Source: Arcuatula senhousia (Eukaryota > Mollusca > Bivalvia > Mytilida > Mytilidae). From it: a DNA stretch of 64,000 nt. Numbering within the stretch: the stretch's first letter is position 1; every line of letters begins with the position of its first letter. The position numbers were made by a program, and so were the translations under genes. The notes beneath the pieces were generated by a model that saw nothing but the letters and a program-made list of their open reading frames with translations, did not search any database and was not told the DNA's origin. The stretch is from contig OZ020313.1 of assembly GCA_963971305.1 (NCBI GenBank), forward strand, positions 57,608,203 through 57,672,202, written 5' to 3'. Below, in pieces: positions 25,930-63,335 of this stretch.

Positions 25930-25970
25930 GAAACTTTTCTAAATTAGTTATTTGAAGCTATAAAAACAGT

Positions 25971-34967: not shown

Positions 34968-35720
34968 AAGCAGTTGAAGTGTACTGGAGGTTAGAAAATA
35001 TATATTTTATATCTCCAAGTTGTAACCAACAGTTGAAGTTAACGGGAGATTAATTAAGATATACTTTATCTCAAGTTATAACGAACAGTTAAAGTAAACG
35101 GGAGGTCAGAGAAAACACATTTTATATCTCAATTTATAACAACTAGTTGAAGTAAACGAAGGTCAGATGAGACATATTCTATATCTCAAGTTATAACAAC
35201 TAATTGAAGTAAACGGGGGGTCAGAAAAGGCATATTTTATATCTCAATTCAAAACAACCAGTTGAAGTAAACGGGAGGTAAGAAAAGGCATATTTTATAT
35301 CTCAAGTTATAACAACCAGTTGAAGTAAACGGGAGGTCAGAAAAGGCATATTTTATATCTCAAGTTATAACACACAGTGGAAGTAAACGGGAGGTTAATT
35401 AAGACCTATTTTATATCTCAAGTTATAACAACCAGTTGAAGTAAACGGGGGGTCAGAAAATGCATATTTCATATCTCAAATTATAACACACTGTTGAAGT
35501 AAACAGGAGGTCAGAAAAGGCATATTTTATATCTCAAGTTATAACAACTAGTTGAAGTAAACGAAGGTCAGATGAGACATATTCTATATCTCAAGTTATA
35601 ACAACTAGTTGAAGTAAACGGGAGGTCAGAAAAAGGCATATTTTATATCTCAATTCAAAACAACCAGTTGAAGTAAACGGGTGGTCAGAAAAGGCATATT
35701 TTATATCTCAAGTTATAACA
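34968..35720 (+). repeat. ~60-bp minisatellite, about 12 copies
   Basis: The unit runs AGTTGAAGTAAACGGGAGGT / CAGAAAAGGCATATTTTATA / TCTCAAGTTATAACAACC. Variant units alternate ('gatgagacatattctatatc' versus 'gaaaaggcatattttatatc'; 'agttataac' versus 'attcaaaac'). The variants recur in blocks, which points to higher-order duplication. Non-coding. Confidence 0.9.
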
Positions 35721-38411: not shown

Positions 38412-38504
38412 AGACCTCTACGTCATGTCTTTGCTTAGAAAACTGCGACACATAATGACTGTATGCCCATTATGATTATGGGCAAATCTATAATATAGAG
38501 CAAT

Positions 38505-40166
38505 ATGCAATGTGTCAGGTCTTTGCGTCTTGAAGTTACTTTCAAACTTGTGGCTAAAGGACCTAAATATCGTGAGCCAAGACGAATCAACTGGAGCTAT
38601 AATTTCAAATTAATTATGGATTCAGTTGAGGACTATGCCAGAAAATGGGCCAAAAAAGAACAGGAGAAAGAATGTGACGTTTTGTCAGAATGGGTAAAAG
38701 CTGTGAGGTCATTGGTTTTGAAAAGAATCAATTCTTTGAAAGGCTCAATGAGCACTAAGGCAACATCCATTTTCAGCAACGCTGATGTTGCCAAAACATT
38801 GTCCACCTTACATGACAAATATGTTGTTGTACCTGCAGACAAAGCACCAAATAACATCATTTTTGTGTGCAAAAAACACTATAGAGACTGTTTGACAGCT
38901 GAATTGGGGGTTGGTTGTACCAGCAACAGCACCACATACACGGCTACAACACTGTCTAAGGAGGAAATCATTGACAATCACAAATCTGTCATTTCCTCCT
39001 TCGGCCTTTCTGTTGGTGGCAGTAATGGTGACATTCCATCCCTGTATTGGATTCCCAAATTACATAAAAATCCATACAAACAGCGCTTCATTGCAGGGTC
39101 ATCCAAATGTACAACTAAACCTCTTTCAGTTTTGTTGACTTCAATACTTACGGCAGTAAAATCCGGCCTCCAGAAATATTACGATTGTTGTTATTCTAGA
39201 AATGGTGTCAATCAAATGTGGATCCTGAAGAACTCGAAAGAACTGATGGAGATACTTAACTCTAAATCAGTTTCATCTTGTAACAGCATCAAAACATTCG
39301 ATTTCTCCACACTTTACACTTCTATTCCACATGAAAAACTGAAATCGCGATTGGCACAGCTGATTAAACGCAGCTTTTTCAAAAAGAATGGAAAACGCAG
39401 GTACAAATTTCTTGTAGTCGATTATACCAAGACTTACTTTGTCATCAATGAGTCCAAGAAAAAGAACAAATTTACAGAAGACCAAATAATCGACATGCTC
39501 AACTTTCTTATTGACAACATATTTGTTCAGTTTGGTGGACGTGTTTTTCAGCAAACAATAGGGATTCCAATGGGCACTAATTGTGCACCTTTGCTTGCTG
39601 ATTTGTTTCTTCATTCACATGAAGCAGACTTCTTGCAATCTCTTCTAGACAAAAAAGACCGTAGACTAGCTCTCTCTTTCAACCTCACGTTCCGTTATAT
39701 TGATGATGTCCTTTCACTAAACAATTCTCGATTTGGTGACTTTCTCCATCTCATATATCCACAGGAGCTTGAGATAAAGGACACAACGGATTCTAGGAAG
39801 TCTGCTTCATATTTAGATCTACATCTCGAAATTGACTCTCAAGGAAGACTTTCAACAAGGCTCTATGACAAACGTGATGACTTCAACTTTCCAATCGTCA
39901 ACTTCCCCTTCTTGTGTAGCAATATTCCGTCAGCTCCAGCTTATGGAGTTTACGTATCTCAATTGATTCGTTACTCCAGAGCGTGCGGGACTTACATCGA
40001 TTTCCTTAGCAGAGCGACACGTCTGACACAAAAATTGCTCACACAGGGTTATGTTGCTCCTCGGTTGCTGTCTTCACTCAAGAAATTTTACGGAAGACAT
40101 CATGCACTTATAGACAAATATGGGATTTCGATCTCTCAGATGAGTGCAGATGTTGGTTTGTCATAG
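38505..40166 (+). CDS. Penelope-like (probable Naiad-type) reverse transcriptase, 5'-truncated copy
   Basis: 553 codons open to the stop at 40,166. RT motifs in order: VVVPADKAPNNIIF near 107-120; the fingers block SLYWIPKLHKNPYKQRF at 179-195; motif A FDFSTLYTSIP with D266; motif B TIGIPMGTNCAPLLADLF at 351-368; catalytic YIDD at 398-401; and SASYLDLHLEI. These are Penelope-like rather than LINE or LTR motifs. There is no C-terminal GIY-YIG endonuclease. Between motifs A and B lies an extra basic stretch (about 290-335, KKNGKRRYKFLVVDYTKT and following), in the place of the insertion-in-fingers domain shared by telomerase and Naiad PLEs. Naiads carry GIY-YIG at the N-terminus, so this copy is probably missing that part. 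The ATG at 38,505 may simply be the first available one. The protein would copy its RNA at a nicked or free DNA end. At least four decayed relatives in the window share its C-terminus. Confidence 0.82.
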   Translation: MQCVRSLRLEVTFKLVAKGPKYREPRRINWSYNFKLIMDSVEDYARKWAKKEQEKECDVLSEWVKAVRSLVLKRINSLKGSMSTKATSIFSNADVAKTLSTLHDKYVVVPADKAPNNIIFVCKKHYRDCLTAELGVGCTSNSTTYTATTLSKEEIIDNHKSVISSFGLSVGGSNGDIPSLYWIPKLHKNPYKQRFIAGSSKCTTKPLSVLLTSILTAVKSGLQKYYDCCYSRNGVNQMWILKNSKELMEILNSKSVSSCNSIKTFDFSTLYTSIPHEKLKSRLAQLIKRSFFKKNGKRRYKFLVVDYTKTYFVINESKKKNKFTEDQIIDMLNFLIDNIFVQFGGRVFQQTIGIPMGTNCAPLLADLFLHSHEADFLQSLLDKKDRRLALSFNLTFRYIDDVLSLNNSRFGDFLHLIYPQELEIKDTTDSRKSASYLDLHLEIDSQGRLSTRLYDKRDDFNFPIVNFPFLCSNIPSAPAYGVYVSQLIRYSRACGTYIDFLSRATRLTQKLLTQGYVAPRLLSSLKKFYGRHHALIDKYGISISQMSADVGLS

Positions 40167-42115: not shown

Positions 42116-44221
42116 AACTTGGCATACAGGTTTTGTCTGGTCGTATCTGTACTTCTAGAAAAATCTTTCTTGTTTTAATGTGTTTTCATTCATAATAGGC
42201 CTGTCTTGTTATGTTTATAAGCTAGCTTAGTTCCCCCAAAGGTGAGAACATAAACCTATTCTGATCCTTTTAAGAAAGCTTTTTCACGAGGCAAAGTTTT
42301 CATAGAAATCCGTCTCATAAAACGCTTTCAAATCATAACGCTACCAATATCATTGATTACGAGGAAAAATTTCAAAATAGAATATCAGGATTTTAATATT
42401 TAATAAGATTCTTAATGCAAATCTTTCGGCTCTTAGTGATGTTAATGGGATATGTGATAAGATGAAACACATTTCTAATCAATAAGGCTTGAAAAAACAT
42501 AAATACGTCTTTTTATTGTGGTATTAGATTAATAACTTAGTGCATATAAAGCTTTGAGAATGCCAAGAATAAAAATATTTTACGACCAAAATCATCAATA
42601 AAGGATGTTAATAAGCGAAAAAAGGACAGCTAACGGCTATTTTCTTGTATAATTCTTTTAAACTCAAATTTATACTGTCTGCAGTCTTTGAGTCTTTTTA
42701 AGAGTCTTGAAAGAGACAATATACTCCAATGAAGTTTAGTCAGGGGAAAATTTAATCGAGCAACAGTCCCTTTTAATATTCTGAAGACCTTTCCTACATA
42801 TAAATTAGGTAGTTTTGTTAACGTTCAGGTTTTGATTGTTAACCTAACGTTGAAATGCCACATTTGATGTCACACGCTTCAACATGAAAATTTACATGAA
42901 CAACATTCACACTTAATGTAGGTTCTACGAAGAAATTTGGTTATTAAGGAACATACGGTGCTTGTTGTTGTCTTGTTCACATTCTTGGTTATAACTTTAA
43001 AACTGCTCTCATCGGGCAGTTAACCAAAATATATCAAGAGAAAAACTATTTAACAAAACATAGCTAAATAGAAAGTTGAAAGTGCACATTGTCATTCTAA
43101 AAATAAAACTTATGTATTGTATTTTAGACCAAGGCCAAATTAAGGATCATTAGGATAATTTTAACCATTTTTCAAGAAAATCGAAGTTTGTGCACAGCTC
43201 ATACGACATATTATCAGGATAAATAAAGTATAGCACATGTAGTAGGACTTAGATATTTGCATACCTTGTCATATTGACGCATTTGTTGTTGTTGAAGATA
43301 GCGCATTTTTTGTTCAAATATTTTGCGTTCAAAATGTATTTTGAATAAGGACAAAATATCCCTATTGTACCTCTCAAATGACCTATTAGTGATCATTTTC
43401 AGTCAGATTATAATTAAATATTGCATGAAATTTGAAGCCACGTAAAAAAAAACCGGTAAAAAATAGAACTTGAAAACAATAGAACTAACCATGGAACTAT
43501 TATCAAAAAAGTTATTAAGAATTTATTTTACCTAGGTGCTACGGTTTGTAATTATAAATGCAGATGTTGTTGTACACACACTGAAAAATCGATCTAAAAT
43601 TAGGACATTTTAAGGTGAATGTATAGGTGAACCTTTAAGTATAACAAGTAGCGATATTTTGTCACATTGAATGTTGCTGTGTAGCTAAACGACTGTTAAT
43701 CTCAATGTTTTTATTTTACATATGTACATGATAATGTCCCAACTTAAACACTAAGACCAAACTGTCAGAACTGTCCTCTAAACGAACTGTTCATTTACAT
43801 AAATTGTCTTAAATACATTTGATATCACTAACTCTCATCTTCATAACCTTAAATAAAACAACTCTAGTTTCAGACCTGTTTTACCTGACCTATGGTTCAA
43901 TGTATGTTCCTCGTTCTAATATGACCACTTAGTACTGGTCACATTATCCCAAGACACTGAAACATAAATACACAATTTAAGATCACAGCTTGCTATTTAG
44001 CGTTGTCGATTTTTAATTGGCGCTGTTTCATTGACTTTGAGCATGTGAACTTACCCCACATTTCTTTAATATATAAAAGTCGAGTTTTGTCTTTAAAAGA
44101 GCCACCAAGGAAGCTTTGCAGAAAAAAAAAGAAACACTTGCTGAATCTAAAACTAATAAAACATTACATACGGTGATAATTATTCCAAATAATACCTTTA
44201 CAGTGCCAGTAAACTTTTTTT
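42116..44221. other. Upstream region of iGluR-B, no exon assigned
   Basis: The 5' exons of iGluR-B (signal peptide and start of the amino-terminal domain) would be expected here or further upstream. A hydrophobic stretch is readable near 42,957-43,018 but has no in-frame ATG, so I do not call it. Sequence is AT-rich. Confidence 0.4.
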
Positions 44222-44689
44222 CAAAAAATGCAAAATATTGAACTACTGGATGATATGTCTTGTTTCTCTTAACAAAAAGGAAAATTGTTGAACTATTGAA
44301 TATCATGTGGTGTTTCTCTTTACAGAAAAGGAAATTGTTGAACTACTGGATGTCGTCCTGTCTTTTTTTTTTACATAAAGACAAACTGTTGAACTTCTAG
44401 GTGTCTTGCTTTGTTTTCTATTTACAGAAAGGGAAACTGTTGACTCATTTTTGATGTCATGTCTTACTGGAAGTTGTCTCTTGTTCCTTTTTAGAGAAAG
44501 GACAACTTTTGACTAGCTGGATGTCTTCTTTTGTTTATCTTTTATAGAAAGGGACACTGTTGAACTACTGGATGTACTGTCTTTTTCCAGAAAGGGAAAT
44601 TGTTGAATTACTGAATGTCATATCTTGTTTCTTTTTACAGAAAGGAAAACTGTGGAACTACTGAATGTTCTGTCTTGTTCTTTTTACAG
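44222..44689 (+). repeat. Array A: nine tandem copies of a 3' splice site plus exon head
   Basis: The unit is a T-rich tract ending in ACAG, followed by AAAGGGAAACTGTTGAACTA and CTGGATGTC(CT)TGTCTTG. Copies start near 44226, 44275, 44326, 44377, 44428, 44497, 44548, 44591 and 44641, then the coding copy at 44690. Spacing is mostly 49-51 bases. The AG is kept in six upstream copies (44326, 44428, 44497, 44548, 44591, 44641) and lost in three. The repeated exon part equals the first ~30 coding bases of the exon. Confidence 0.9.
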
Positions 44690-44877
44690 AAAGGGAAACT
44701 GTAGAGCTACTGGATGTCCTGTCTAAACATAAAGTGTTCTTTGTTGTGTACAGCATGTCAGAAGTAACAGCGACAAAAATAGATGCATTGGCAAGCAACA
44801 AGTTGATGGATCACGCCGACAAAATTAATTTTACAGTATTGTGTTCATCAAAATCATGCGGAGAATTTTTAAGAAAG
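44690..44877 (+). CDS. iGluR-B exon: amino-terminal domain segment
   Basis: The acceptor is tttacag and the donor gtaaaa (phase 0). The first two bases complete a codon from an unseen exon. It encodes RETVELLDVLSKHKVFFVVY, then SMSEVTATKIDALASNKLMD, ending CGEFLRK. The mix of alternating hydrophobic strands and helices fits a periplasmic-binding-type amino-terminal lobe. It is the last copy of array A. Confidence 0.75.
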
Positions 44878-47800
44878 GTAAAACATTTAACAGTTTATCA
44901 ATGTCTTACATCATCCTCTGCAATTTAGCAAAATCAAGAAATGGCAGCTCTTCTTAAGACAACAATTGATATCGTAAGTTTTTTTTTATAAATGAAACAG
45001 ATGTTCATATTTTACTAACAACTCGACATGTAATTATAAATCAATGGGAAAATTAAAGTACTGTACAGCGTAAAGTATTACTCTCCATTAACCAACGAGT
45101 ATTGTATTTTACATTGAAGCCTTTCGAATATGAAAGAAAGCACGTATGGAGGAACTCACTGTTACACTTTTCGAGATGGCTTGTTGGTATTTCAGACGTT
45201 CACAGTTCGAACGATATACCATTTTTCAACACGATTCCTTTCGACAATGTTGCTGTAGTTCAGTTTTCATCCAATAGTGTTAACATAAGGACAGACCTGC
45301 AACAGAATAACAGACAAGGGGTAAGAAAAATCCAATGTTTAGTATGCTGTACAGATAGCACTACCTCAATTTAACATTCGATTTTTGTTCATAATCGACG
45401 AACTATGACGATGATGCTACAAATTCATTTTTACGTTTGGTTTAGTTCGTTTAAACTCTAATATAACTATATTTTAACGTCACATGAAGATATTCTTTAT
45501 TTATCAAAAGTAACTTAAACCTAAATGTACACCTGATTAGAGACAGACGGCCGAACACACTCGAACATTTCAAGTCTGTCTACTTTCGTGCCTGTAGATT
45601 ATAAACAGATAGATCATGCTTTAAATGGATATTTTCTCAAACCTCTATATATATCTATTAAATTACACTCAATATCAAACAAAACATTTTATTATTTGTG
45701 TAGACTGTCAACAGACAAACATTCGGTTTAACCAACGCGAGATCATGTAGATTTATAAATTTCATAGAAATAATACAATATGTAAAAAAAAAAAACTTCT
45801 TGTAAGAAGCAGAGGTACCAATGGGGTATCCGAATGTCAAAAGTCCTTAAGGGCAGAGACAACCCTAACCCTAACCACCAGTAAACACCAACAAGAACGG
45901 GACAAAAACAGACAACATGTTAAACATTGAAACACAAAATAACTGAATATCAATCAACAGCACAAACTCCAGTCGAAACAACAGTAATTAACGAACCAAA
46001 AACCTATTTTGTTTAAAAACGAAATAAACTGAATATTTTTTATATTCATAATAGAATTAGAATTAGCCACGGTATGTGATTTGTTGTGGATGACGCTGTT
46101 TTGTCACCGTACACTATACAGTTGAGTCCAGATCTAACATCTCTACTGTCCAGCTCTCCCGACAGTTCTAGAACTGTCCTAACCCTGGACAGCCCCTGTC
46201 ATAAACTGTTCTGGGGTAGAACTGTCAGGAACTGTTCAAACCCATGACACCTTAAGAGCTATTTTAGGCCCTGACAACTTAGAACTGTTCTAGGCCCTGA
46301 CAGGTTAGAACTGTTCTAGCCTAGGACAGTTCTGCGCCCTGACAGTTTTTGTCCTCTTACAGTTCTAAATGACGTCATGCATCGTTTATTGTAATGGTTT
46401 TGTTTGTGTTAAGTTAAGTCAAAATACCTCCAGTTAAGTCAGCCGAATTTTGCATTATTTTCGTCAAAGGATTGTAAATTAAAAAAATTCAGGAAAGTTG
46501 TGTGTACAGATATCAAATATTTTTGCAGAAAGTGAAAGCGTGTTGATATCAAGAGAAGGGATAGGGAAGTTTTATACGTGATATCTGGAAGCTAGAATAA
46601 TCCATAAAAAAAGAAGCTATTATATGTATATTCTAAACTGTTATAAAATCGTCACAACTGGAACTGTCAGGGGTTAGAACTGTCATAGCTTAGAACTGTC
46701 AGGGCACAGAACAGGTTAGAACTTTCAGGGCGTAGGACAGCTTAGAACTTTCAGGGGTTAGAACAGTTCTAAATCTGTCACGGGGTAGAACTGTTCAGAA
46801 CTGTTCTGCGACAGGACAGGGCCTGTCATAAACTGTTCTAGAGCTGTCAGCAGAACAGATTTAGAACAGATTCCTGACAGTACCTGACAGTTCAAAAGAG
46901 ATGTTAGAACTGGACTCAACTGTATGTGCCAGTGGTAGATGTTATGTAATTTGCAAACATGTACCAATCAAAACAAATTTATTTTATATCTTCTTACTGA
47001 ACTGGGGTGTGCACTTGTCATTCTCAATTGTTAGATTATTGTTTTAATTATATAGGAACAATCAACCGACCTTTGTGAAGTCTGGTTTGTTCACACACTG
47101 TTGTGGCAGAGAGCATTTCGAAGTCTACTAGAAATAGGGTTTATACAGAAAAATGGAAGCTTAGTTTTAAGTCAGGATATATTTCCCAACATAAAATTTG
47201 GATTCAATGGTCGACGATTCAAAATCAATACCTTACCAGTAAGTTAGTTTAGTCTTTTTAATACATACTTGGTTGGAATAATGAAAACATCGATGCATTG
47301 GATGCTATGCTATCATAAAATTATCAAGAAGAGATAAAGGCGTATCTACGTCACGTTTGCAAAGGTAAAATAAGGAAATATTATAATTTTAAATCAAAAT
47401 AAACATAAACCGCCAAATCTCTAGAGATATCTTTTAAAGATATAGCATGTTATGTAAGGATATGGCGTTTTGTTTTGTTCCAATGTTTTGATTTCAATGC
47501 TACTGATAAGAGGTAACTCTTTGAAATATCGATATATAGCATATCAAAATTGACCGTTTGTACCCACGTTTTGGTATTTGTAATTATGGAGTAAATTAAC
47601 ATTAGACTTTAACGCATATGTAAACTTAAACTGTAATTGATTCAATTTGACAAAAAAACAATTTTCAATAATATACTCATGGAAAAAAGAAACTGTGCAT
47701 GTCTATTGAAAATCAATTGTACCCATATTTCCCCTAATCAGAAAATTGTAAAAAATACATTTATCGAGTTGAAATTTTCACTGAATGTCGAGTGGGCAAT

Positions 47801-50800
47801 GCAGATCATTTTGGGGTAGAAATCCGAATTTTTTTTAAAATTCCAGTTTCTGAGATTCAAAAATCACTTTTTTAACCCAAAACTCAAAAATCAAGATTTT
47901 CACTCAAATTAAACCTGTTAACTTTCAACCACTAAAAGGAAAAACATTTTTGGCAAAAATCGGCTGAGAAAACTTAATCTAAAAAATGTGCATTGTTTCC
48001 AAAGTGTGATTTTGTGAATTTCGAATTGACACTACCTGATTTCAAACTGCAACCAAACCATCTTTTAGGGGTCTGAAAATGATTTTTTTTTGTCCAGATC
48101 TTAAGTAAAATGATTTTGCAATACTTTTGAGACAAAATGTATCAAATACTTAAAAAAATGTTGAATTTATGATTTTTCAAAGTGATGCACAGTTTCTTTT
48201 TTCCATTAATATATAAGAAGCTTAAATTAAAGAAATTAAATAACACAAATATACTGCTGAAAATGACATGATACATGAATGTTAATGTTAAAGTAAACAT
48301 GCAAATCCTGTTGGTGTTATCTACAATTAATAATAAACTTTACACCATATGGAATTCTACCCATACATTTTATGGTATTTCGCTGATATATTGTTCTCAA
48401 ATTTCCCCACAGGTCAATGAAACAGGAAATCGATAGTTCTACTCCCGGTACATACATATACACTTGCTTAGTTTTGGCCCAATGATAGAAAACATTTATA
48501 TGTCAGGTCATCGCTCAACATAGTGACGACAGTTTTATTGTACAGAAATATTCAATTCTTGTAATAACTGCAGTTATGAATTTCCGATAACGTAAAATCA
48601 AATATACATATCTACCGGAATGCGTAGCAAGCCCCAGGATGAACAAAAATCTATACTTGAATGTGATATAACTTTCGAATTAAAAAAAATGCACATCATT
48701 TTATAGAGTAATATCACGGCCACCAACCTGTTAATTCACCTGAAGCATTGAGATAAATGCACATGAAGTTTGTTAATCGAGACGATTCTTTCTATGACTG
48801 TTTAGAGTAAAAGTTGGGGTCTAAAAGTCATTTATGTACAAAATTGTAACTATTTTGAAGAATTCGAAAAAAAAAACTAATGGAGATTCTTAACTCTAAA
48901 TCAGTTTCATCTTGTAACAGCATAAAAACATTCTATTTCTCCACACTTTACACTTCTATTCCACATGAACAGCTGAACTCGCGATTGGCACAACTGATTA
49001 AACGCAGCCTTTTAAAAAAAAATGGAAAACGCAGGTATAAATATCTAGAAGTCGATTATACCAAGACTTAATTTGTCATCAATGAGTCTAAGAAAAAGAA
49101 TAAATTTACAGAAGACCAAATAATCGACATGCTCAACTTTCTCATTGACAACATATTTGTTCAGTTTGCTGTACGTGTTTTTCAGCACACAATCGGGATT
49201 CCAATGGGCACTAATTGTGTACCTTTGCTTGCTGATGTTTTCTTCATTTATATGAAGCAGAATTCTTACAATCACTTCTTAACAAAAAAGATCGTAGACT
49301 AGCTCTCTCTTTTAACCTTTGAAGTCTGCCTCATATTTAGATCTACATCTCGAAATTTACTCTCAAGGGAGACTTTTAACAAAGCTCTATGAAAAACGTC
49401 ATGACTTCAACTTTCCAATCGTCAACTTTTCCTTTTTGTATAGCAACATTCCATCCGCTCAAACTTATGGAGTCTCGTGTCACCGTTGATTCGTTAATCC
49501 AGAGCTTGCGGGAATTACATCGATTTCCATGGCAAAGCTTTAGGTTTGACTCAGAAATTGCTGATACGGGGTTTTGTTGCTCTACAGTTGCTGTCTTCAC
49601 TCAATCAGTAGACACCGTGTACTCGAAGACAAATATGGGATTTCTATCTCTCAGATATGTGCAGATATTGGTTTGTCGTAGAAATTTGATTTGTCTTCCC
49701 TTACCGGAGTTCCCTCTTGTTGCGATTTGAGTTCCCGTTGTTGATTTTCTTTCGGTCGATTTTGTGTTTTGTGTTTCTTCGTGCTATTCTTGTTCGTATT
49801 TACCGGTTTCGTCGTTGGCATTTCGGACTTTTGACTCTCGAATATTTGTGTCTTTTGCTTCTTTTGAAATTTATTTTTCATGTTTTCCTACTTACCCAAT
49901 TTTTCATGTTTAAGCTAACGTCTTTAATGCCGCTTTTGCTAAAGAAGCAAAGAGGCACCAATATTCGAGTGTCAAAATTCCGAAAGTGACACAACAGCAC
50001 CGGTAAGCATGATTAAACTTTATTCTACTCTCCATTTACTCAAGGTAAAAAAATTGTAAAAAAGTAATGCCTATCTACATACTCTATTTGTTTCAGTCAT
50101 GTAACAGAAAACATTATATACTAGTATTTCATGTTTTGCCTTACATGTCAATAATTTCACAGCTTGAAAAAAAAAGATGTATTCACTATACATTGGTGTG
50201 AAAATCAGTGTGAAATTAAGGAAATATGTTTTTGATTGATAATTCACAAAAGGTATCTTGAAGTGGTAAAGGAAAACATGTTCAAGTGATACCCGGTAAT
50301 GTGGTTTGGAATAAAAAAAAGGGACATTAAGATTATTGTAAACCTCAAACACACCATTCAACTGGTCGCTAGCTGCAATAATCTACATTGATTTACTCTT
50401 AACCGACCTGTAAGCAGAGCAAAATTTATTTGACCTGACTCAATAACCGACCAAATTACCAATAACAATCAATATCTTCATGACACATAAACAAACAAAA
50501 TTTTGATCTTAAAATCTTAAGAGATCATTTCATAGATCAAATGAGTGCAGATATTGGTTTGTCGTAGATATTTGTTTTGTCTTCCTTTACCGGATTTGAC
50601 ACACTGAATTGGAAACTAGCAACACGACGTGTGCGCTATAGCAGGCAAGAACCGGAGCACCCGAGTTCGCTGTTGCTACGACTTGAGTTCGCTTTCTTGA
50701 TTTTGTGTTTCTTTGTGCTGTTCTTGTTCGTTTTTACCGGTTTTGTCTTTGCCCTTCTGGACTTTTAACACTCGAATGCCCCATTGGTGCGTCTTTGCCT

Positions 50801-53800
50801 CTTTCACACATAACAAAAGATTAAACAATCATTAAGTGTAAAATTACTGAAATAACAACAGCAGAAAATGATAAACTTGTTATGCCAGAATATTGTGTAC
50901 ACCTAAATTAACAAACATACAAACAGACAAATAATTTCATTGCGAATTTCTGCGCCCCAAAAGAGCAAAATAATCACAGAAAAATAACAATATACAGTTC
51001 GTAATGCTTGATTATACTGATTGGTTGGATATCTTACCCCTGCCTTTCCATTAAAGACTAATCCAACAGAGGCATTAAAGTCAATACAGTAAATTATTGG
51101 AGGTGGGACTCGCAAGGTTATGTGATTTATTTCATTTTAATAGAAGCCAATTTGAGATGTAATAAATAAACTATATTCATAAATTCGATTGAGTCAGACA
51201 ATTTCTTATTTTTCTTTTTTTTTCTCAAATTAAAACGCAATTTTGTATATCAATACAAATCCAGCAACAATTTGGACAGACATACTTTATTTTACAAATT
51301 AGATTCTTTAAAAATGATAATATTAACAAATGCAACTTACCTGTGTATATATCTCGATAACATTTGATGAACAGTCTTTGACCGACATTTGCGCATTTAT
51401 CTTAATAACAGATTTTCGCTCGTTTTACCGTTTGGTGACCGTGGATATAATGTTTTGTTTTTAAGCGGTCTTGTTTATTATAGTGTTAAAAATCATTTTT
51501 ATTGAATTGTTGTGTTTTCTGTTTGAGTAGGCTTGGTTTGTCATGAAAGCAATTTTTAATGTATTTTTCTGTTTTAGTGGGCTCCGTTTGGCATGAAAGC
51601 AATTTTTGATGTATTTTTGTTTTAGTGGGCTCCGTTTGTCATGAAAGCAATTTTTAATGTATTTTTGTTTTAGTGGGCTCCGTTTGTCATGAAAGCAATT
51701 TTTAATGTATTTTTTTTTGTTTTAGTGGGCTCCGTTTGCCATGAGAGCAATTTTTAATGTATTTTTGTTTTACTGGGCTCCGTTTGTCATGAAAGCAATA
51801 TTTAATGTATTTTTTGTTTTAGTGGGCTCCTTTTGTCATGAAAGCAATGTTTAATGTATTTTTTTCTGTTTTAGTGGGCTCCGTTTGTCATGGAAGCAAT
51901 TTTTAATGTATTTTTTTTATATTTTAGTGGGCTCCATTTGTAATGATAGAGGAGAAAACACATCAGTATATTGGCGTGACCATTCAACTTTTGAAAGAAT
52001 TAGCCCATGGAATGAATTTCACGTAAGTTTGTTTTATATATACTCTCTCAAAAAAGTTACGCAACAGTGGAAAATTTCCTTATATGTTTTAAGTAAACCT
52101 TCCTTATTATAAATTGATATTGCCAAGCCGTTTTTCAATCATTTAATATCAAATAAAACCAAGAAAAAGAGAAACAAGTGAAGTTCATTTTTCATGATTT
52201 GGGCAAAATCCTAACTGTTACGGTTTTTGATAGAACGCGAGTAGAACATTACCAATGTTTTTCCACGGAAAATGTTGGTTGATTTAAACGGGTTGTTGAC
52301 GCATAAAATTAATAGTTGATTTCTACTTGTGATATCTTAAAAACCGGTGAAGTGACGATTTTTCTAAAATCATGAATATAAATTGCAATCATTTCTCGTT
52401 CTTTTGATTTTATTTGATTTAAATCGGTTAAGAAATGGCTTTGAAATACAAAAATAGTATTAGGTAGGTTTATTTAAAATATATAAGAAAATTTTGTATT
52501 GTTGCGTAACTTTTTTGAGTGAGTATACATAGTTAATATAAATATTTATAATTTCGACGTCGGGTTATGATTTTTGCCATATAAACGAACTAGAAATATC
52601 TACATATAATAACACTAGATTTTGGGAAATTACATTTCAAAGCTATGATATTCAACTTTAGTAAAAATCTTTTAAAGTTTTGTCACAAAAAAGAAAGAAA
52701 ATATGATTTATGTTCTCACATTTTTATGAAGTGATGTCAGATCAATTAAGGTGTGAACGATTTTTATAAACAATTATCAATACTTTATTCAATTTCGTTT
52801 TATCATATCTGTTAAAGAGTGTGTTCGAGCTGTCAGAAGCTGCTTGATATCTTTGCAATTTCCACTCCTATCATAGCACATGTTTTTGCTCCTGATGTCG
52901 AAGAAAATTTTTTTTTAGACTATATAAGAACATTTCTTATCTCAAAGACGGCCAGGAAAACATCAACCTGGATAAAACATGTTTATACCCTGGCATATCA
53001 TATAAGTGTTTACTGTAAAAATATACAACTATATTCAAAATTGGTCCATACAATTTGTGTTAGAATAGTTATATAAGAAGTTTGGTTTGACGTATTTGAC
53101 AGGTACGACCTTGTTCCTCCCCCAGATGGTAAATGGGGAGCCCGAAGTTCTAATGGTACTTGGAGTGGCATGATAGGAGAGCTACAGAGAAAGGTAGATA
53201 TTCCAGATACTGATTTAATCATATAGTCTTGTTTTCATTTATGATATACTTTAGCTCATTATTCATCAGTTAGGTTTATTTTGACACTTTAAAGGTGACA
53301 ACATAGACAACTTCTTCGGGCCAATTCATGAATTCTAGATAAGATAATCCATTGAAGGAAACAAAATCGCTAAAAAGAATGCCTATTGATATCTACAATA
53401 CATTTATATTTTAGAATGCAGACCTTATAGTTGCACCACTTGCAATAAATTCTCTGCGCGACGTAGTGATGGATTTTACCCAGCCGTACTATTATGAGTT
53501 TTCAGCATTGCTGTTAAAGAAACAGGATCCGAATGAGACCCGATGGCGAAAGTTACTCGACCCATTTAGTCCGTTGGTTTTGCTCTTTATTGGAATTTCT
53601 CTACCAGCAGTTGCATTGTTCCTGTTTCTTTTCGAACGCCATAATCCGTTTTATAGACACATTCTTAAGCGAGAAACAATGAGAGGACTTCATCATTTCT
53701 CGGATTCGTTTTGGTATATGTTTGGAGCTTTACTTACGCAAGGCTAGTATGTTTAAAGAAAAAATATCAAAGCTAATAAAAAAGACTTTATTTTGTTGGG

Positions 53801-56800
53801 ATACACATTGACCACTAAACTATCTAAATCCTGACACATTTTATATGCGCCTATCTTAATCAAGGAATTACCCATATCCTCAGTGTCTGCTATCTTTATG
53901 CTTTCAGTTTATGTTAAGTTATGGGAAGTAAAACTGGAAGCGTAGAACTAAAAACATAAAGATACGTACACCAAAATGAGGACAATTTACACCAATTCTT
54001 GTTCGATGTCATATATTTTACTTTTAATAAAAAAATTCTTTAAGATTGCTAATATATTAACAAATTGTCCACATTTGGTGTATCTCAGTCTAAAAAACCC
54101 ATCTATTGGTTTTAAAGGGAGGGAAGGGCGGGTAAGGAAACCACCTCATATAAGCTGAGTGACACTGTAACTGACGTATGACAATCATCACATCTACTGT
54201 CTATCCATAAGCATGGATATTAAAATAATGAGAATGAGTAACATGAACTTCCGCCTACGTCATCAGTCAATGAGACTATACCCATATCCTCAGTGTCTGC
54301 TATCTTTATGCTTTCAGTTCATGTTAGGTTATGGGAAGAAAAACTCGACAGCTTACAAGATGCAAATTTCATAACGAAACGACAATAAACCGACTTTAGC
54401 TCTCTTCCCAAAACTCAAAAATAAAATAAAACACCTCATATGAACACGATATGACAAGGACAAGAGTTTATTTGATAAAACTTGCATTAAAAACTGATTG
54501 TGATGGCTTTTGTAATCATCATACAACAATCCCATATTAAGCATGAACACAAGCACCAAAACAAATCTAGGTCTGACACATGCCAAGGTATAACATCCAT
54601 TATTTCAAGTATCTTTTCCGATCTGCACGTGAGTTTGCAAAACGAAGGGATCTCTCCTTCGAGTGTTAACAAGTCCTGAGAATCCCTTTTATTATCTACT
54701 TAGATGAAAATCATATCGGTGTGTAACTATAATATTAAAGCAAAATAAATGGAATAAAAATAATTCTTTACACAAGACCCGTTAAATTCAAATACTAGTA
54801 TATACCAATTTTGTAAAACTTAAAGGAGAAAATCCCCTCGCTTGCAACTCACGTGAGCGAACCCACTAGGGCATCAGTGTCCCTTGAATTGCTAACGAAA
54901 GGAAATTCACAAAGAAAGCAATACCAAACAACAAATTGTATAAAACATTTAACATCAGACAACAAAGTACATATTTAAATAATTTCATTTTATTTGCCTT
55001 GAACATTCGTTTAACACGAAATAACGATCCCTCAAGTCTATTGTTATAGATTGCTATACTATTCACGACGTTTTCTAATTTAGGCTTTGATTTCCGTCTT
55101 CCATCACTGAGTTAATGATTTTCCAGAGCAACTTCGGCGGGATCACTTTTCCCTTCAGTTTCCATTCCATACCTTATGTTACTCTGAAATGAACAATACT
55201 ATACACTGTAAACAAGTTGATTAAGGTGTTTCATATAACATATTGTATCAAATGATTCCCGTTTTAAAACTATTTCTTCTTTTTAATGAATTCTTATTAT
55301 ATATTTGGCAACCAAAGGAAACAGTTAAGAAATTAAAAGGCTTCACTGCTGTATATTGGCCAATAGGACAAGCTTATTATCAGATTATGCACGAACACTA
55401 GGAATTTCTTTCAAAAACAATGTTAAGATCTGATTTGAATATAATACATATTTCGTTGGATAAAACGCACGAACTAACCTCAATCATAAATTCGAATTCC
55501 AGTATTTCCACAAAAAGTAAGCCTCTTCTATCTATAACACTTACATCTCTGAAATCAAAATAAATACTTGTAAATAATTAATAATCAAGCACATGTTCGG
55601 TGTATATTTAAATTTACTCAACCAAATCAAAACACGTCCTCGATAAAAGGACACGTGAACTTCATTTAATACAACAAGGTTATATGTCCATGAAATAGAA
55701 AATACACAATGACATTATGTTCATAAATAAGCATTTATCTATCATTCATATGGTTGCTTAAAATTTGTTGGCAAATAATTTCTTTAAATTTATACTTGAA
55801 AGTTGTTCTAAGCTTTTCTCTACGCAATAAACGTCCACACGTGCGACTTAATATTTATTTCATGAAATATCTTTTCATGGCCACCTAGGCCTATATGTGC
55901 CTGACCACCTAGGTCTATATGTTCATGCCACCTAGGCCTATAAGTGCATGACCACCTAGGCCTATATGTGCATGACCACCTAGGTCTATATCATGGCCAC
56001 CTAGGCATTAATGTGCATGGCCACCTAGGCCTATAAATAATAAGTGCATGGCCACCTAGGCCTTAAAATTATCAGTGCATGGCCACCTAGGCCTATTAAT
56101 TATCAGTGCATGGGCACCTAGGCCTATAAAATATAAGTGCATAGTCACCAAGGCAAATAAAATGGAATACCTAACAGTATGGCGTGTCACACTCGACACG
56201 TCCGTTCCCTAGCTTGGATATTAAAATAATGAAAATGAGTAACATGAACTTCCGCTTACGTCATCAGTCAATGAGACTACTCTGTCAATGCTTACGTTCG
56301 TCCCTTGTGTATTTATTGTTCTATGTCCAGAAATGGGTGTTTGTAAAGTATTTTGGGATTGGCATTGGATCTTATGTTACTAATTGTGCACCTCTGCTTG
56401 CTGATCTGTTTCTTATATACATGTACTATTTTTGCTCCCGGTGGATTTTCACATTTCAATTAATTTATGTAATGTATGTAGTGTACACTTATTCTATATA
56501 TCATGTATGCCGAACATATTGACGAATAATTATTTTTAGTTACCAAGCTTTTCTTGTCTCTATATTAAGGAGAAGAACATATTTCTGAATCATTATTCTT
56601 AGTTACAATGTTTTTGTTTTTGAATATTATAGGTGTTTAACTATGTAAACGGTGTCGAATCAGCATTTTTTAATTACCATGTTTTTCCATTTCAAGGAGG
56701 TGACATACTGCCGATTCATCATTTTAAGCTACCTTATTTCGTTTCTTGCTTTAGGAGGTGAACATATTGCCGAATCATCTTCAGGCAGAACCATTTTAAG

Positions 56801-58807
56801 TTGTTGGTGGCTATTTTGTATCATAATGGTAGCAACGTATAGTGGTAACTTTGTGGCATTTCTTACTGTCTCAAAAGAAAAGCTACCGTTTACAAAAATA
56901 GAGGAACTGGTTGAGCAAAGCCAGTACAAATGGGGGACACCTGGAGCAACTATATATGAAACCATATTTAAGGTAAACCTAATTCGCTTTTGAGGAGGTA
57001 AGCGCACCATAAAACCGGATTTAATTCACAATTTCTATAGTAATGCCTGTACCAAGTCAGGTATCTAGTTTTTCCGGTATGTCTTCCTTGTTTGTCTTTT
57101 CTTTATGACACCAATATTGATTCTTCAAGATTGGTAATTAAGCATTACCTTTATTATATAGAATTTGTAGTGTACAGATGTAGTTATCCCCGTTTTGCTC
57201 ATATTTTTGTTTCAATACAGTGAAATACTGTATCTGCCAACATTTAAGGCCATGCTATTATTTTGTACGTGAGAAAAGCAAATAGAAAGCTCTTCGTTTT
57301 GTTTCCGTATTTATAATATGGTTTTGTTAAATAACTCATATTTCTGCTGTTTCCAAATAATGAGAATATTATAAATAGATTTGTTGGGTTATAAAAAATC
57401 CTCAAGCGAAACTATATTGGTTAGGTTTTAAACAACATCATAGTAAATCTATTCCCGAAACTGATCAATTGTTTAATTTGTCTTCTATTGCAGGTATTAA
57501 ATGTCTGTTTCATTTTTTTCCATTCTAATTAAAAAAGATAATACTGTAGCATTCAAATCTTCCCGAGAGAAAGAAGCTTTGGGAAGGTATGGTGGAATTT
57601 AACAAAACAGATCCATCCGTACTAAGCAGTGACCCTGCAGTTCATATCACCAAGGTCATCAGTGGTGGCTATTGTTACGTTGGCGATAAAACCTACATAG
57701 AACTGGCAATGACCAGCCACTGTAATTTGGCAATGGCGACAGCAGATATATTACCTGTCCAGTATGCAGTCGGTTTGCCTAATAATTCACCATTTCTTCA
57801 GGTTTTCTCAGATGAGTACGTATGCTTAACTGGTAATAGATATTTTATTCAACCACGCTCTTAGAATACATGTATATCTGATAAATAAACTAAATATTTT
57901 ACATTCTTTAATCATAAAAAGATGACTCAAAATTACAGTTTTATACAAAGTTCAAGATCTCAAATTATATTAAGAGTTTTTATTTTCACTCAATTTAAAA
58001 CAAAGATTCGGAGGTCCTTTTTTTGAATTACCTGTATAAAAGGAATGTAGTTCAGCTATTCCAGTTAAATTGTCTTTATGTTATTTTCGATGTCATGACC
58101 GATAATCGAATTGTACGTAAAAACACGAAACGATTACACTTTAGTCTACATTTTGCTGTTTCATTTTATACTACAGTTTCTTTATTCGAGTAAAAATCCC
58201 TATCATAAGAACACATTAATTGTTGATATGTATATAGAATTCCATCTCTCGGGTATTTGACCTATTGTCTGTTCGCCACAATCTGTTACCAAATGAACAG
58301 ATAAAATCACGACAATACTATGTGTTTCAAATCACTTTAGAGACTTAAACATATTTTATATATGATTTCAGAATTGTAGCATTACTAGAGACTGGTTTGA
58401 TACAAATGTGGAAAAAGCAAATTTGGCCAAAGAACGAAAATTGTCGAACAGCTGGAATGACAGAAGCTAAGACAATAATGCTACTTGATATACAGATTGT
58501 TTTCTATTTGATAGGAATAGGCGTTGGATTAGCAGTGATAATTCTTACCTATGAATGCATAAAAAATCGCATACTAATATGTAAAGGACGCACGCAATCA
58601 AAACGACGTGAAACCGTTGTTCATTTTAAAGGAAATATAAAGGACTCTGACGTAGAGACAAATGATAACAGTTTCTGTATCATATCTCAATGTTCTGTCG
58701 AGTCATCAATAAACTCTGATGTTATCTACCAGGCTGATGACGGATATCGAACTCAGACAGTTTCGAGGAGAAATAAAGATGACTCCATTCATGACACCTC
58801 TTTATAA
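44690..58807 (+). CDS. iGluR-B: ionotropic glutamate receptor-like gene, 10 exons, 5' partial
   Basis: This is a ligand-gated cation channel subunit of the plasma membrane. Exons 44690..44877, 44929..44973, 45120..45320, 47056..47238, 51928..52022, 53103..53193, 53415..53742, 56755..56972, 57550..57815 and 58372..58807 join in one frame for 682 residues. The first four encode part of an amino-terminal domain, ending FGFNGRRFKINTLP. The S1 lobe follows (WAPFVMIEEKTHQYIGV...), then M1, the pore loop, M3, S2, M4 and a ~90-residue cytoplasmic tail. The ligand arginine is in NSLRDVVMDF, the Q/R-site residue in GALLTQGGE is threonine, and M3 is TYSGNFVAFLT. Presence of an amino-terminal domain argues against the short IR class unless it is IR8a/IR25a-like. 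Nine introns are GT-AG except one GC donor at 53743. Three exons are preceded by tandem splice-site arrays, and introns hold three TA-flanked MITEs and Penelope-like debris. The 5' end is missing. Confidence 0.9.
44929..44973 (+). CDS. iGluR-B exon: 15-codon microexon
   Basis: Encodes QNQEMAALLKTTIDI between acceptor aatttag and donor gtaagt, phase 0 on both sides, only 51 bases after the previous exon. Both splice signals are good and the frame is kept, but evidence rests on that alone. Confidence 0.6.
45120..45320 (+). CDS. iGluR-B exon: amino-terminal domain segment
   Basis: 67 codons, phase 0, donor gtaaga after CAAGGG. It encodes PFEYERKHVWRNSLLHFSRW, then LVGISDVHSSNDIPF and DNVAVVQFSSNSVNIRTDL. 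The 5' limit is the weak point: the acceptor ttgaag has a poor pyrimidine tract, and a downstream AG (gaaag) is possible. Confidence 0.65.
45805..45986 (-). mobile_element. Penelope-like 3' tail, subtype A, with telomeric-type insert
   Basis: Nearly identical to 32,331-32,482 (same strand) but AACCCTAACCCTAACC replaces the expected few bases at 45,861-45,876, between 'gggcagagac' and 'accagtaaacacc'. The copy extends slightly further than the 32-kb one, to 'aactccagtcgaaac'. Confidence 0.85.
46119..46922. mobile_element. 804-bp TA-flanked MITE built of GAACTGTC words
   Basis: Terminal inverted repeats CAGTTGAGTCCAG(A/T)TCTAAC extend ~27 bases with one mismatch and are flanked by TA on both sides, as for Tc1/mariner elements. 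The interior is dominated by the word AGAACTGTC/GACAGTTCT, on one strand in the left third and the other in the right third, around a plain AT-rich centre. No transposase. It lies in an iGluR-B intron. Confidence 0.8.
47056..47238 (+). CDS. iGluR-B exon: end of amino-terminal domain, linker to S1
   Basis: 61 codons, acceptor atatag and donor gtaagt, phase 0. It encodes EQSTDLCEVWFVHTLLWQRA, then FIQKNGSLVLSQDIFPNIKF and GFNGRRFKINTLP. The last part is the typical 'N.FNGR.L.V.TLP' approach to the S1 lobe, which continues as WAPFVM in the next exon. Confidence 0.85.
47676..48209. mobile_element. 534-bp TA-flanked MITE
   Basis: Terminal inverted repeats contain ATGGAAAAAAGAAACTGTGC and AT; the outermost three bases are less conserved (CTC versus TTA). 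TA dinucleotides flank both ends. The interior is AT-rich without a reading frame. Confidence 0.75.
48877..49681 (+). pseudogene. Penelope-like RT, decayed copy
   Basis: Collinear with residues ~247-553 of the 38,505 RT. It starts at MEILNSKSVSSCNSIKTF, has a stop right after VDYTKT, keeps TIGIPMGTNCVPLLAD and then frameshifts. About 30 codons covering the catalytic YIDD box are deleted (SFNL joins directly to KSASYLDLHLEI). A frameshifted C-terminal part ends at the family stop near 49,681. A 5'-truncated, catalytically dead copy inside the iGluR-B intron. Confidence 0.88.
49682..49862 (+). mobile_element. Penelope-like 3' tail, subtype A, internally deleted
   Basis: It follows the decayed RT. 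The 'gacgggtgtgctatagca' block is missing, and 'gttccctcttgttgcgattt', 'ttaccggtttcgtcgttggc' and 'atttcggacttttgactc' remain. Confidence 0.75.
49943..50003 (-). mobile_element. Penelope-like 3' tail, short inverted fragment
   Basis: 'gaagcaaagaggcaccaata' and 'tcaaaattccgaaagtgaca' are the complement of a subtype-A tail end. It lies in opposite orientation 80 bases after the 49,862 end, making an inverted tail pair. Confidence 0.65.
50538..50803 (+). mobile_element. Penelope-like 3' end, subtype A
   Basis: It starts in the last RT codons ('aatgagtgcagatattggtt', 'tgtcgtag') and continues with 'cttcctttaccggatttgac', 'gtgcgctatagcaggcaag' and 'cccttctggacttttaacac', ending near 'gcctctttc'. 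Confidence 0.8.
51528..51927 (+). repeat. Array B: eight tandem copies of a 3' splice site plus exon head
   Basis: The unit is GTATTTTTGTTTTAG followed by TGGGCTCCGTTTGTCATGAA and AGCAATTTTTAAT. Copies start at 51528, 51578, 51626, 51674, 51726, 51774, 51823 and 51875, then the coding copy at 51928; spacing 48-53. The AG is intact in seven and AC in the 51774 copy. Each unit encodes WAPFVM exactly as the exon does, then meets a stop in frame (TAG of the next acceptor). Copies resemble one another more than the exon (CCG/GTC versus CCA/GTA). Confidence 0.92.
51928..52022 (+). CDS. iGluR-B exon: start of S1 lobe
   Basis: The acceptor is attttag and the donor gtaagt (phase 2). It encodes WAPFVMIEEKTHQYIGVTIQ then LLKELAHGMNF. 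This is the S1 entry with the 'P.V......G..I.LL.E.A...NF.Y' pattern of glutamate receptors. The next exon supplies the last base of the split threonine codon. Confidence 0.9.
52043..52523. mobile_element. 481-bp TA-flanked MITE, 20 bases after a splice donor
   Basis: Terminal inverted repeats CTC(T/A)CTCAAAAAAGTTACGC and AACA, 24 bases with one mismatch, flanked by TA. The structure is typical of Tc1/mariner-derived non-autonomous elements. Interior AT-rich, no reading frame. Confidence 0.85.
52524..53102 (+). other. Rest of iGluR-B intron
   Basis: AT-rich. The 52,819-53,076 frame has no recognisable receptor features. Confidence 0.5.
53103..53193 (+). CDS. iGluR-B exon: S1 segment
   Basis: 91 bases, acceptor tgacag, donor gtagat. 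It encodes YDLVPPPDGKWGARSSNGTW, then SGMIGELQRK. It is the counterpart of 1099..1189 in iGluR-A with identical length and phases. Confidence 0.9.
53415..53742 (+). CDS. iGluR-B exon: ligand-binding strand, M1, pore loop
   Basis: The acceptor is attttag. It encodes NADLIVAPLAINSLRDVVMD, then FTQPYYYEFSALLLKK, WRKLLDPFSP, M1 (VLLFIGISLPAVALFLFLFE) and the pore GLHHFSDSFWYMFGALLTQG. The proline of PLA and the binding arginine are kept, while the threonine of the PLT motif is alanine. The exon must end at CAAG (53,742) to match the next exon, which gives a non-GT donor, gctagt. Confidence 0.88.
53868..54345 (+). repeat. 70-bp direct repeat pair
   Basis: 53,868-53,942 and 54,281-54,345 share 'tacccatatcctcagtgtct', 'gctatctttatgctttcagt' and 'tatgggaag-aaaact'. 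Non-coding. Confidence 0.7.
54205..54278 (+). repeat. Direct repeat, copy 1 (copy 2 at 56,205)
   Basis: 'tggatattaaaataatga-aa', 'tgagtaacatgaacttccgc' and 'tacgtcatcagtcaatgaga' recur at 56,205-56,280 in the same intron, 2.0 kb apart. Confidence 0.7.
55876..56160 (+). repeat. CACCTAGGCCTATA minisatellite, about 10 copies
   Basis: The unit is CATGGCCACCTAGGCCTATA plus TGTG, 24-36 bases long, with variable AT-rich spacers (taaataataag, ttatcag). The CCTAGG palindrome and AGGCCT are conserved in most copies. Confidence 0.85.
56205..56280 (+). repeat. Direct repeat, copy 2
   Basis: See 54,205-54,278; diverges after 'caatgagactac'. Confidence 0.7.
56330..56430 (+). pseudogene. Penelope-like RT motif-B fragment
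   Basis: The frame IGIGSYVTNCAPLLADLFLI aligns with IGIPMGTNCAPLLADLFL of the 38,505 RT, with the PMG changed. About 30 codons only. Confidence 0.7.
56508..56754 (+). repeat. Array C: four tandem copies of a 3' splice site plus exon head
   Basis: The unit is a T-rich tract, AG, then GAGGTGAACATATTGCCGAA and TCAT. Copies start near 56508, 56570, 56633 and 56697, then the coding copy at 56755; spacing 58-64. They are more diverged than arrays A and B. AG precedes the exon-like head in the 56570, 56633 and 56697 copies. Confidence 0.85.
56755..56972 (+). CDS. iGluR-B exon: M3 and start of S2
   Basis: The acceptor is gctttag and the donor gtaaac, 218 bases as in iGluR-A. It encodes GGEHIAESSSGRTILSCWWL, M3 (FCIIMVATYSGNFVAFLTVS), the linker KEKLPFTKIEELVEQ and YKWGTPGATIYETIFK. 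An AG three bases into the exon (ttaggag) could also be used, removing one residue. Confidence 0.9.
56973..57549 (+). other. iGluR-B intron
   Basis: GT-AG. 57,041-57,140 is a relative of the repeat at 275-394 ('atgcctgtaccaagtcaggt'). Remainder not recognised. Confidence 0.7.
57550..57815 (+). CDS. iGluR-B exon: S2 lobe
   Basis: The acceptor is actgtag and the donor gtacgt (phase 2). It encodes HSNLPERKKLWEGMVEFNKT, DPSVLSSDPAVHITKVISGG, then YCYVGDKTYIE with an aspartate at the S2 acidic position, and QYAVGLPNNSPFLQVFSDE. The start was set by parallel with iGluR-A (FSELPER). Confidence 0.88.
57816..58371 (+). other. iGluR-B intron
   Basis: GT-AG, AT-rich, nothing recognised inside. Confidence 0.7.
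58372..58807 (+). CDS. iGluR-B final exon: M4 and cytoplasmic tail
   Basis: The acceptor is atttcag. It encodes VALLETGLIQMWKKQIWPKN, TAGMTEAKTIMLLDIQIVFY, the M4 helix LIGIGVGLAVIILTYECI and a ~90-residue basic then serine/aspartate-rich tail (KRRETVVHFKG, CSVESSINSDVIYQADDGY). It stops at TAA 58,805-58,807. The tail has several serine/threonine sites next to basic residues that could be phosphorylated; no known C-terminal interaction motif is evident. Confidence 0.9.
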
Positions 58808-58927
58808 CAACGTTTTACATATTTTATAAACAAAACATGTCTTAAAGTAATTTTGAGTTTTGTCTCGCCTGCGAAGCAATGCGGGACATATGTGTTACTT
58901 TACCGGCGGCGGCGTTAACTTTTTGGA

Positions 58928-62079: not shown

Positions 62080-63335
62080 TGGCTATGGGTATAAATAGAT
62101 TATGGGTTATGGGTCTTGGGTTTACCTAGGTTATGGTTTGTGGGTATACCAAGGTTATGGATTATTGGTTTACCTGGGTTATGGGCTATGGGTTATGAGT
62201 ATACCTAGGTTATGGGTAATGGGTATACCTAGTAAGTTATGGGTTATGGGTTATGGGTTTACTTATGTTATGGGTAATGGGTCTACCTGGATTAAGGGTT
62301 GTGGATTACGGGTTTACCTGGGTTATGGGTTATGGGTTTACCTAATTAATTGGTTATGGGTATACCTAGTTTATGGGTTATGGGTTTACTTAGTATATGG
62401 ATTATGGGTTTACCTGGATTAAGGGTTGTGGATTACGGGTTTACCTTGGTTATGGGTTATGGGTTTACCTAAAATATGGGTTATGGGTATACCTAGGTTC
62501 TGGGTCATTGGTTATGAGTTATGGGTTTTGGGTTAACCTAGGTTATGGGTAATAGGTATACCTAGGTTATGGGTTATGGGTTTACTTTGGTAATGGATTA
62601 TGGGTAACGGGTTTACCTAGGTTATGGGTTGTGGGTTACGTGTTTAACTGGGTTATGGGTTATGAGTATACATACTTAATGGGTTATGGGTATACCTAGT
62701 TTATGGGTTATTGGTTTACCTAATATATGGGTTATGGGTATACCTAGGTTATGGGTGATGGGTAAATCTAGGTTATGGGTCATTGGTTTACTTTTTTCAT
62801 GGGTTAAGGGTGTACCCAGGTTATGGATTATGGTTCATTGGTCAAGGGTTTACCTGGTTTATGGTTCATGGGTTATGGCTTTACCTGGGTTATGGGTTAA
62901 AGGTATAATAAGGTTATGGGTTATGGGTTTACCTAGTTTATTGGTGAAGGGTTCACCTAGGTTATGGGTTATGGGTAAACCTAGTTTATGGGTCATGGGT
63001 TATAGGTTCAAATAGGTCTTTGGTTGAGGGTTTACCTAGGTTATGGGTTATGGTTCATGGGTCATGGGTTTACCTGGGTTATGGGTTATAGGTATACCTG
63101 GGTTATGAGTGATGGGTTTACCTAGTTTATTGGTAATGGGTATACCTAGGTTATGGGTTATGGGTAAACCTAGGTAATGGGTCATGGGTGATGGGTTCAC
63201 ATGGGTCACGGATAATGGGTTTTCCTAGATAATGGGTAATGGTTCATGGGTCATGAGTTTACCTGGGTTATGGGTTATAGGTATACCTAGGTTATGGGTT
63301 ATTGGTAAAGCTAGGGTTAGGGTATAGGCACTTTG
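62080..63335 (+). repeat. Telomere-like minisatellite (TTATGGG / ACCTAGG)
   Basis: About 1.25 kb of TTATGGGTTATGGGT(T/A)TA joined to CCTAGG or CCTGGG. The main words are TTATGGG (7 bases) and TTTACCTAGG/TATACCTAGG, with period 20-50. The array ends with CTAGGGTTAGGGTATAGG, i.e. with two true TTAGGG-type units. G-rich on the + strand throughout. Long open frames across it (rich in GYGLWV) are repeat artefacts. Confidence 0.9.

Follow-up and report, generated by a model that had tools for sequence, protein, structure and literature searches.

The window analysed here, i.e., the whole stretch of 64,000 nucleotides of Arcuatula senhousia DNA, contains the glutamate-receptor gene iGluR-B, whose exons and arrays all lie on the + strand. 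Ten exons of this gene, between 44690 and 58809, join into one open 682-residue glutamate-receptor protein, in which ligand-gated channel and glutamate-binding domains were found and whose closest relatives among the matches listed are Mytilus proteins, with at most 58% identity. A further exon lies upstream, at 13239-13311 (start approximate), directly followed by the donor gtaagt. Three of the ten exons are preceded by tandem arrays, namely exon a (44690-44877) of the amino-terminal domain, exon e (51928-52022, WAPFVM...) of the ligand-binding domain, and exon h (56755-56972), which carries M3 (GGEHIAESSSGR...). Exons b (44929-44973, after an intron of 51 bp), c (45120-45320), d (47056-47238), f (53103-53193), g (53415-53742, M1-M2), and i (57550-57815) are without arrays, as is the last exon (58372-58809), which contains the stop. 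Exon g requires a GC donor at 53743 (gctagt), and by reading a nearby GT would make a stop; iGluR-A has GT at the matching place.

The starts of the three exons are well defined. In translated alignments with Mytilus homologues, the match opens precisely at 51928, and at 44690 and 56755 to within a few codons; the AG and the reading phase then fix these last two positions. All three exon starts had thus been called correctly in the initial annotation.

Architecture of the three iGluR-B arrays

Array 1 (44217-44689) directly abuts exon a and consists of nine extra copies of about 50 bp, spaced by 43-69 bp, each joining an acceptor to the head of the exon, with the acceptors at 44226, 44276, 44326, 44377, 44428, 44497, 44548, 44591, and 44641. 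As the upstream exon ends near 13311, the intron that terminates in this array is about 31.4 kb long. Array 2 (51498-51927) has eight extra copies of the same design, with a spacing of 48-53 bp and acceptors at 51528, 51578, 51626, 51674, 51726, 51774, 51823, and 51875. Array 3 (56512-56754) is degenerate, with three clear extra copies (acceptors at 56570, 56633, and 56697, spacing 58-64 bp) and a partial one, a match at 56512-56530 without an acceptor. The aligned copies therefore bear out the nine and eight extra copies reported earlier before exons a and e, while the four reported before exon h is generous, three being clear and the fourth lacking an acceptor. By reading of the aligned copies, the units hold about 36 (array 1), 20 (array 2), and 25 (array 3) coding bases, which are the first bases of the respective exons; the earlier estimate of 15-30 bases is thus adequate for arrays 2 and 3 and too low for array 1. 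The AG is retained in 6/9, 7/8, and 3/3 of the copies, i.e., in 16 of the 20 that could be aligned.

By eye, the units of the three arrays are unrelated to one another, as had been claimed. A search of the 1.04-Gb genome with the units of arrays 1 and 2 returned only this locus, which also rules against a dispersed or mobile unit. The copies of array 2 have common states unlike the authentic exon head, a comparison for which arrays 1 and 3 have diverged too far.

Each border was probed with 55 bases placed across it against 1 kb of the adjoining intron, together with 200 dinucleotide shuffles. The acceptors of arrays 1, 2, and 3 score 61, 62, and 37, respectively, and the best of their shuffles 30, 32, and 27, so that each exceeds all 200. 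The remaining seven of the ten acceptors and all ten donors of the gene score only 14-21; for one donor, near 13311, the probe lay one base out of register. Arrays are accordingly present at 3/10 acceptors and 0/10 donors. Tandem Repeats Finder (TRF) detects arrays 1 and 2 and misses the degenerate array 3. The M3 acceptor of iGluR-A (~3214) is absent from the flagged sites, in agreement with the initial annotation, which had noted no array there.

Consequences of decoy use

Scored with a matrix derived from 45 receptor-family acceptors, the AG-retaining iGluR-B decoys lie between 4.9 and 12.6, the family mean being 9.5, and 15 of the 16 fall in the usual acceptor range. If any of the 20 decoys were used, translation would reach a stop within 46 residues. 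This excludes working alternative exon starts for iGluR-B, a role that had been suggested for the decoys. More generally, the view that the arrays serve to vary the protein finds one example outside the window, a decoy of a kainate/AMPA-like receptor exon (L062) that is in frame and open and would add 26 residues. Of the 14 decoys of the calcium-channel array described below, 13 lead to a stop and the fourteenth, nearest to the exon, shifts the frame, and together with the 20/20 stops in iGluR-B this makes such a role extremely improbable.

The same stops could be the purpose of the arrays, if the decoys compete with the real acceptor and divert part of the transcripts to premature termination, thereby tuning the level of the receptor. 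It is in favour of such a function that every iGluR-B decoy is followed by a stop, that 16 of 20 keep the AG and most of these score like authentic acceptors, and that in all eight acceptor arrays, those of iGluR-B and the others below, the AG is retained a little more often than the average dinucleotide of the unit. However, most intronic reading yields stops anyway, and by rank the AG is ordinary, with on average about half of the other unit dinucleotides conserved equally well. Arrays 1 and 3 are moreover decaying, similar arrays occur at donors and in unrelated genes, and exon borders are no richer in repeats than intron interiors (see below). We consider a regulatory function of the decoys quite unlikely. 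The pattern of AG retention in the aligned units fits drift and would be compatible with weak selection. Use of the copies as recursive splice sites was also considered and rejected, since only one aligned copy (56633) has a GT after the AG.

Border-crossing repeats in receptor and channel genes

Two samples were drawn from the same assembly. The receptor sample comprises 134 tblastn hits to glutamate-receptor exons, 15 of them inside the window, and the channel sample 21 exons hand-picked as short hits in clusters from 119 profile matches to voltage-gated channels. The exon ends derive from these hits, making the denominators below approximate. A zone of 100 bases was examined at receptor loci and of 140 at channel loci, and each flagged border was read individually before being counted as border-crossing. 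Outside the window, copies were counted by cut-offs on the alignment score, without per-copy shuffles, and subfamily names apart from calcium channels were assigned by reading of the sequence.

Beyond iGluR-B, five acceptor cases, in two glutamate receptors and two channel loci, and four donor cases were found. The acceptor arrays of the receptors precede an NMDA-like exon (L045, 3 extra copies) and the kainate/AMPA-like exon already mentioned (L062, up to 8 extra copies); those of the channels include arrays of 5 copies (L087) and of 3 copies (L073, matching calcium channels).

The most striking relative of the iGluR-B arrays is that of a calcium-channel exon on C9 (C9:39323334-39324593, L088 and L086), where 14 decoy acceptors lie ahead of an exon of 132 bases that matches calcium channels. 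From its match to solved channels, we take this exon to encode the domain II S4-S5 region. The array consists of 15.5 copies of an 86-bp unit and takes up about 1.26 of the 1.44 kb of the intron, leaving some 180 bp outside it, and 12 of the 14 decoys are identical to the authentic site over the last 25 bases of the intron. A second channel locus, on C1, has its own array before the homologous exon, with a unit of about 155 bp. The copies in the two genes are 88-100% identical to their own exon head and 54-62% to that of the other gene, suggesting that the two arrays arose, or were homogenised, independently.

Copies crossing a donor are found in four receptor loci. The largest set belongs to a kainate/AMPA-like receptor (L002, C7 near 2892712), in which up to seven extra copies of the exon tail and donor make up most of a 769-bp intron. 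The other three (L001, L054, and L064) have a single extra copy each, which in L064 is about 430 bp distant; the donor of L001, at a score of 33, falls short of the threshold of 34 and was included among the crossing cases on the basis of its reading. By reading, the homologous receptor exon before M1 has donor copies in three paralogues (L001, L002, and L064), a possible hot spot. The four copies compared from the two C7 receptor loci are 70-78% identical to their own exon and 50-57% to that of the paralogue, and these, too, apparently arose or were homogenised independently. Five further borders (C1445, C4, C5_7057900, C2_30180001, and L072) were flagged, proved to be non-crossing, and were omitted from the crossing counts; C1445 and C4 are probably two copies of one locus.

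Altogether, crossing repeats are present at 8/145 acceptors (5/~135 when iGluR-B is left out), at 4/148 donors, and at 84/1446 pseudo-borders placed inside introns, the last figure coming from a strict test in which the repeat must cross the pseudo-border and the first two from zone tests and reading, such that the comparison is generous to the borders. The strict test applied to the inferred borders gives 2/91 acceptors (arrays 1 and 2 only) and 0/55 donors, and it is because it missed array 3 and other degenerate cases that zone tests and reading were used for the borders. The zone test itself flags 11/145 acceptors, 5/148 donors, and 83/1015 interior probes (acceptors versus interior, P=1.0), the interior flags being 33/338 in the window, 40/578 at the other receptor loci, and 10/99 at the channel loci. 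TRF covers 3.45% of interior bases, 3/134 acceptors, and 0/131 donors. Acceptors and donors do not differ significantly in crossing repeats (P=0.25, or P=0.75 without iGluR-B). Within the scope of two gene families, approximate exon ends, and overlapping probes, border-crossing repeats are thus about as frequent as, or rarer than, repeats inside introns; the P values are only a guide, because the interior probes overlap the same arrays.

These rates bear directly on the initial annotation, which had judged the three arrays hard to explain as random tandem duplication and had proposed a genome scan of exon borders, including 5' sites, for comparison. In the two families, and within the limits just given, the array rate at borders is like that at other intron positions, the outcome that the initial annotation itself had named, for a genome-wide scan, as a refutation, and the argument from non-randomness is not supported. 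Nor is the proposed link to acceptor sites or pyrimidine tracts, because donors carry crossing copies as well, up to seven at one donor; slippage specific to acceptors is disfavoured for the same reason.

A broader mutational process tied to exon borders was also considered, in which splice sites of either type would be hot spots of slippage or recombination. In its favour, three arrays lie in one gene, 3 of the 21 channel acceptors have arrays, one calcium-channel acceptor has different arrays in two paralogues, the donor of one homologous receptor exon has, by reading, copies in three, and the copies are closer to their own exon than to the paralogue's in both pairs tested. Against this stand the border rates, which do not exceed the interior ones, although a mild excess could be masked, since coding constraint should lower the rates at borders. 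That donors and acceptors are both affected speaks against a cause in the pyrimidine tract. At background rates, the probability that three of ten acceptors carry arrays is 0.005-0.04, for a gene chosen after the fact for having them. On balance, we regard a border-tied process as unlikely.

Proposed interpretation as near-neutral mirages

Judged by their sequence organization, the iGluR-B arrays belong to a known kind. In the amphioxus genes Adh3 (as cited in PMC3087553), the globins BflGb6 and BflGb9 (PMC3087553), and PGBD5 and troponin C (PMC3902484), minisatellite-like duplications across intron-exon boundaries, at both 3' and 5' borders, are described under the name of mirages. The reported units measure 10-160 bp and many, not all, of the copies keep the AG or GT, and according to PMC3087553, regular splicing is apparently undisturbed. 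The arrays of iGluR-B likewise consist of tandem copies (9, 8, and 3 extra ones, plus a partial one) whose units span the boundary with the splice signal and part of the exon and keep the splice dinucleotide often, not always; both types of border are affected in this genome as well, three of the four donor cases being single-copy. Unlike those of amphioxus, the present examples come from a mollusc, occur three to a gene, and are known from the genome sequence alone, and the calcium-channel relative has 14 decoys as compared to the 3 and 6 units reported for the globin case in PMC3087553. Mirages are, in short, recurrent in this repeat-rich mollusc genome, at both 3' and 5' exon borders.

We therefore favour, with a probability of about 0.72, an explanation of the iGluR-B arrays as mirages that arose by ordinary minisatellite growth from a border-spanning duplication and whose inert upstream decoys are tolerated. 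The seed would be a tandem duplication that happened to span the intron-exon border, and the array would then grow by the usual turnover of tandem repeats. After such a duplication the exon would still work, provided that splicing uses the copy contiguous with its remaining part. The real exon would retain the copy nearest to its own donor, and it is this copy that the spliceosome would pick. Under exon definition, expected for long introns, sites closest across the exon would be favoured and the upstream decoys would amount to inert intron. The splicing machinery probably ignores the decoys; we infer both their low use and the reason for it. The occurrence of three arrays in iGluR-B would be chance aided by long introns. 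What counts against the mirage reading is the improbability of three affected acceptors in ten and the fact that homologous borders are affected in paralogues, apparently independently, which hints at hot spots.

The role of intron length agrees with several observations. In iGluR-B, the three introns that end in arrays are the longest of the ten (P=1/120). In the receptor sample, mirages are present at 9/158 borders next to introns of 700 bp or more versus 0/86 next to shorter ones (P=0.03). This threshold was fixed with the data in view and only narrowly includes one case (735 bp); some of the lengths are minimum values, and the count leaves out 26 borders whose intron length is not known. 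The arrays themselves lengthen their introns, those of L002 and of the C9 calcium channel being mostly array; given the post hoc cut and these two introns, the link to intron length is to be taken as tentative. In a database study, sites closest across the exon were favoured beside large introns and sites closest across the intron beside small ones; at 3' sites an overall upstream preference was reduced under exon definition, and reversed not in all classes (PMC9225289). By this rule, upstream decoys would do less harm where a long intron precedes the exon.

Two other phenomena involve similar elements. Tandem duplication involving splice signals is shared with the AGGT model of intron gain by tandem genomic duplication (also PMC4974935), in which a new intron is made inside an exon. 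In the present case, existing introns are enlarged at their ends, and exon starts coincide, or nearly so, among homologues. The arrays might still represent early intron gain, as proposed for amphioxus mirages as a source of new introns in PMC3087553, or relics of tandem exon duplication. However, the units hold about 20-36 coding bases and never a whole exon, and the introns must be older than the arrays, because the exons of relatives start at or near the same points, making both origins very improbable. NAGNAG tandem acceptors, in which competing acceptors 3 bases apart precede one exon and change the protein by one residue, also place competing acceptors ahead of one exon; unlike them, the arrays of iGluR-B have spacings of 43-69 bp, separate pyrimidine tracts, and decoys that give stops.

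Acceptor choice among equals is usually studied with built minigenes. The genes described here provide a natural series of 4 to 15 similar tandem acceptors before real exons, and such near-identical series make the choice directly testable. In iGluR-B the readout would be clear, every wrong choice leading to a stop. In the C9 channel, 12 of the 14 decoys share all 25 terminal intron bases with the real site, so that position rather than local sequence must mark the latter, if only the last is used. A bolder generalization would be that exon borders in this mollusc lineage are recurrent targets of tandem amplification across the border, independently in paralogues and at a few percent of borders, with splicing reliably settling, by position alone, on the final one among as many as 15 near-identical acceptors; we consider it rather unlikely as a whole. 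No report of mirages in molluscs was found in the open-licence literature, which was searched only partly by mollusc or bivalve terms, and as far as that literature shows, the present cases extend mirages beyond lancelets. Apparently new are the occurrence in a mollusc, the number of arrays in one gene, the rates measured against an intron-interior control, and the series of near-identical acceptors.

Several other repeats and open frames were noted in the window. The 31-kb intron of iGluR-B contains two long open frames at 25956-31805 (392 and 1159 aa), which by reading resemble the two frames of a LINE-type retrotransposon. An open frame of 555 aa at 38499-40166 reads as reverse transcriptase-like and has an apparent degenerate second copy near 48900-49650. 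At 34965-35720, also in the large intron and at no known border, there are thirteen copies of a 58-bp unit, similar in size to the units of the exon-border arrays, and a long degenerate array with a 24-bp unit (GGTTATGGGTTATGGGTTTACCTA) is found at 62080-63320.
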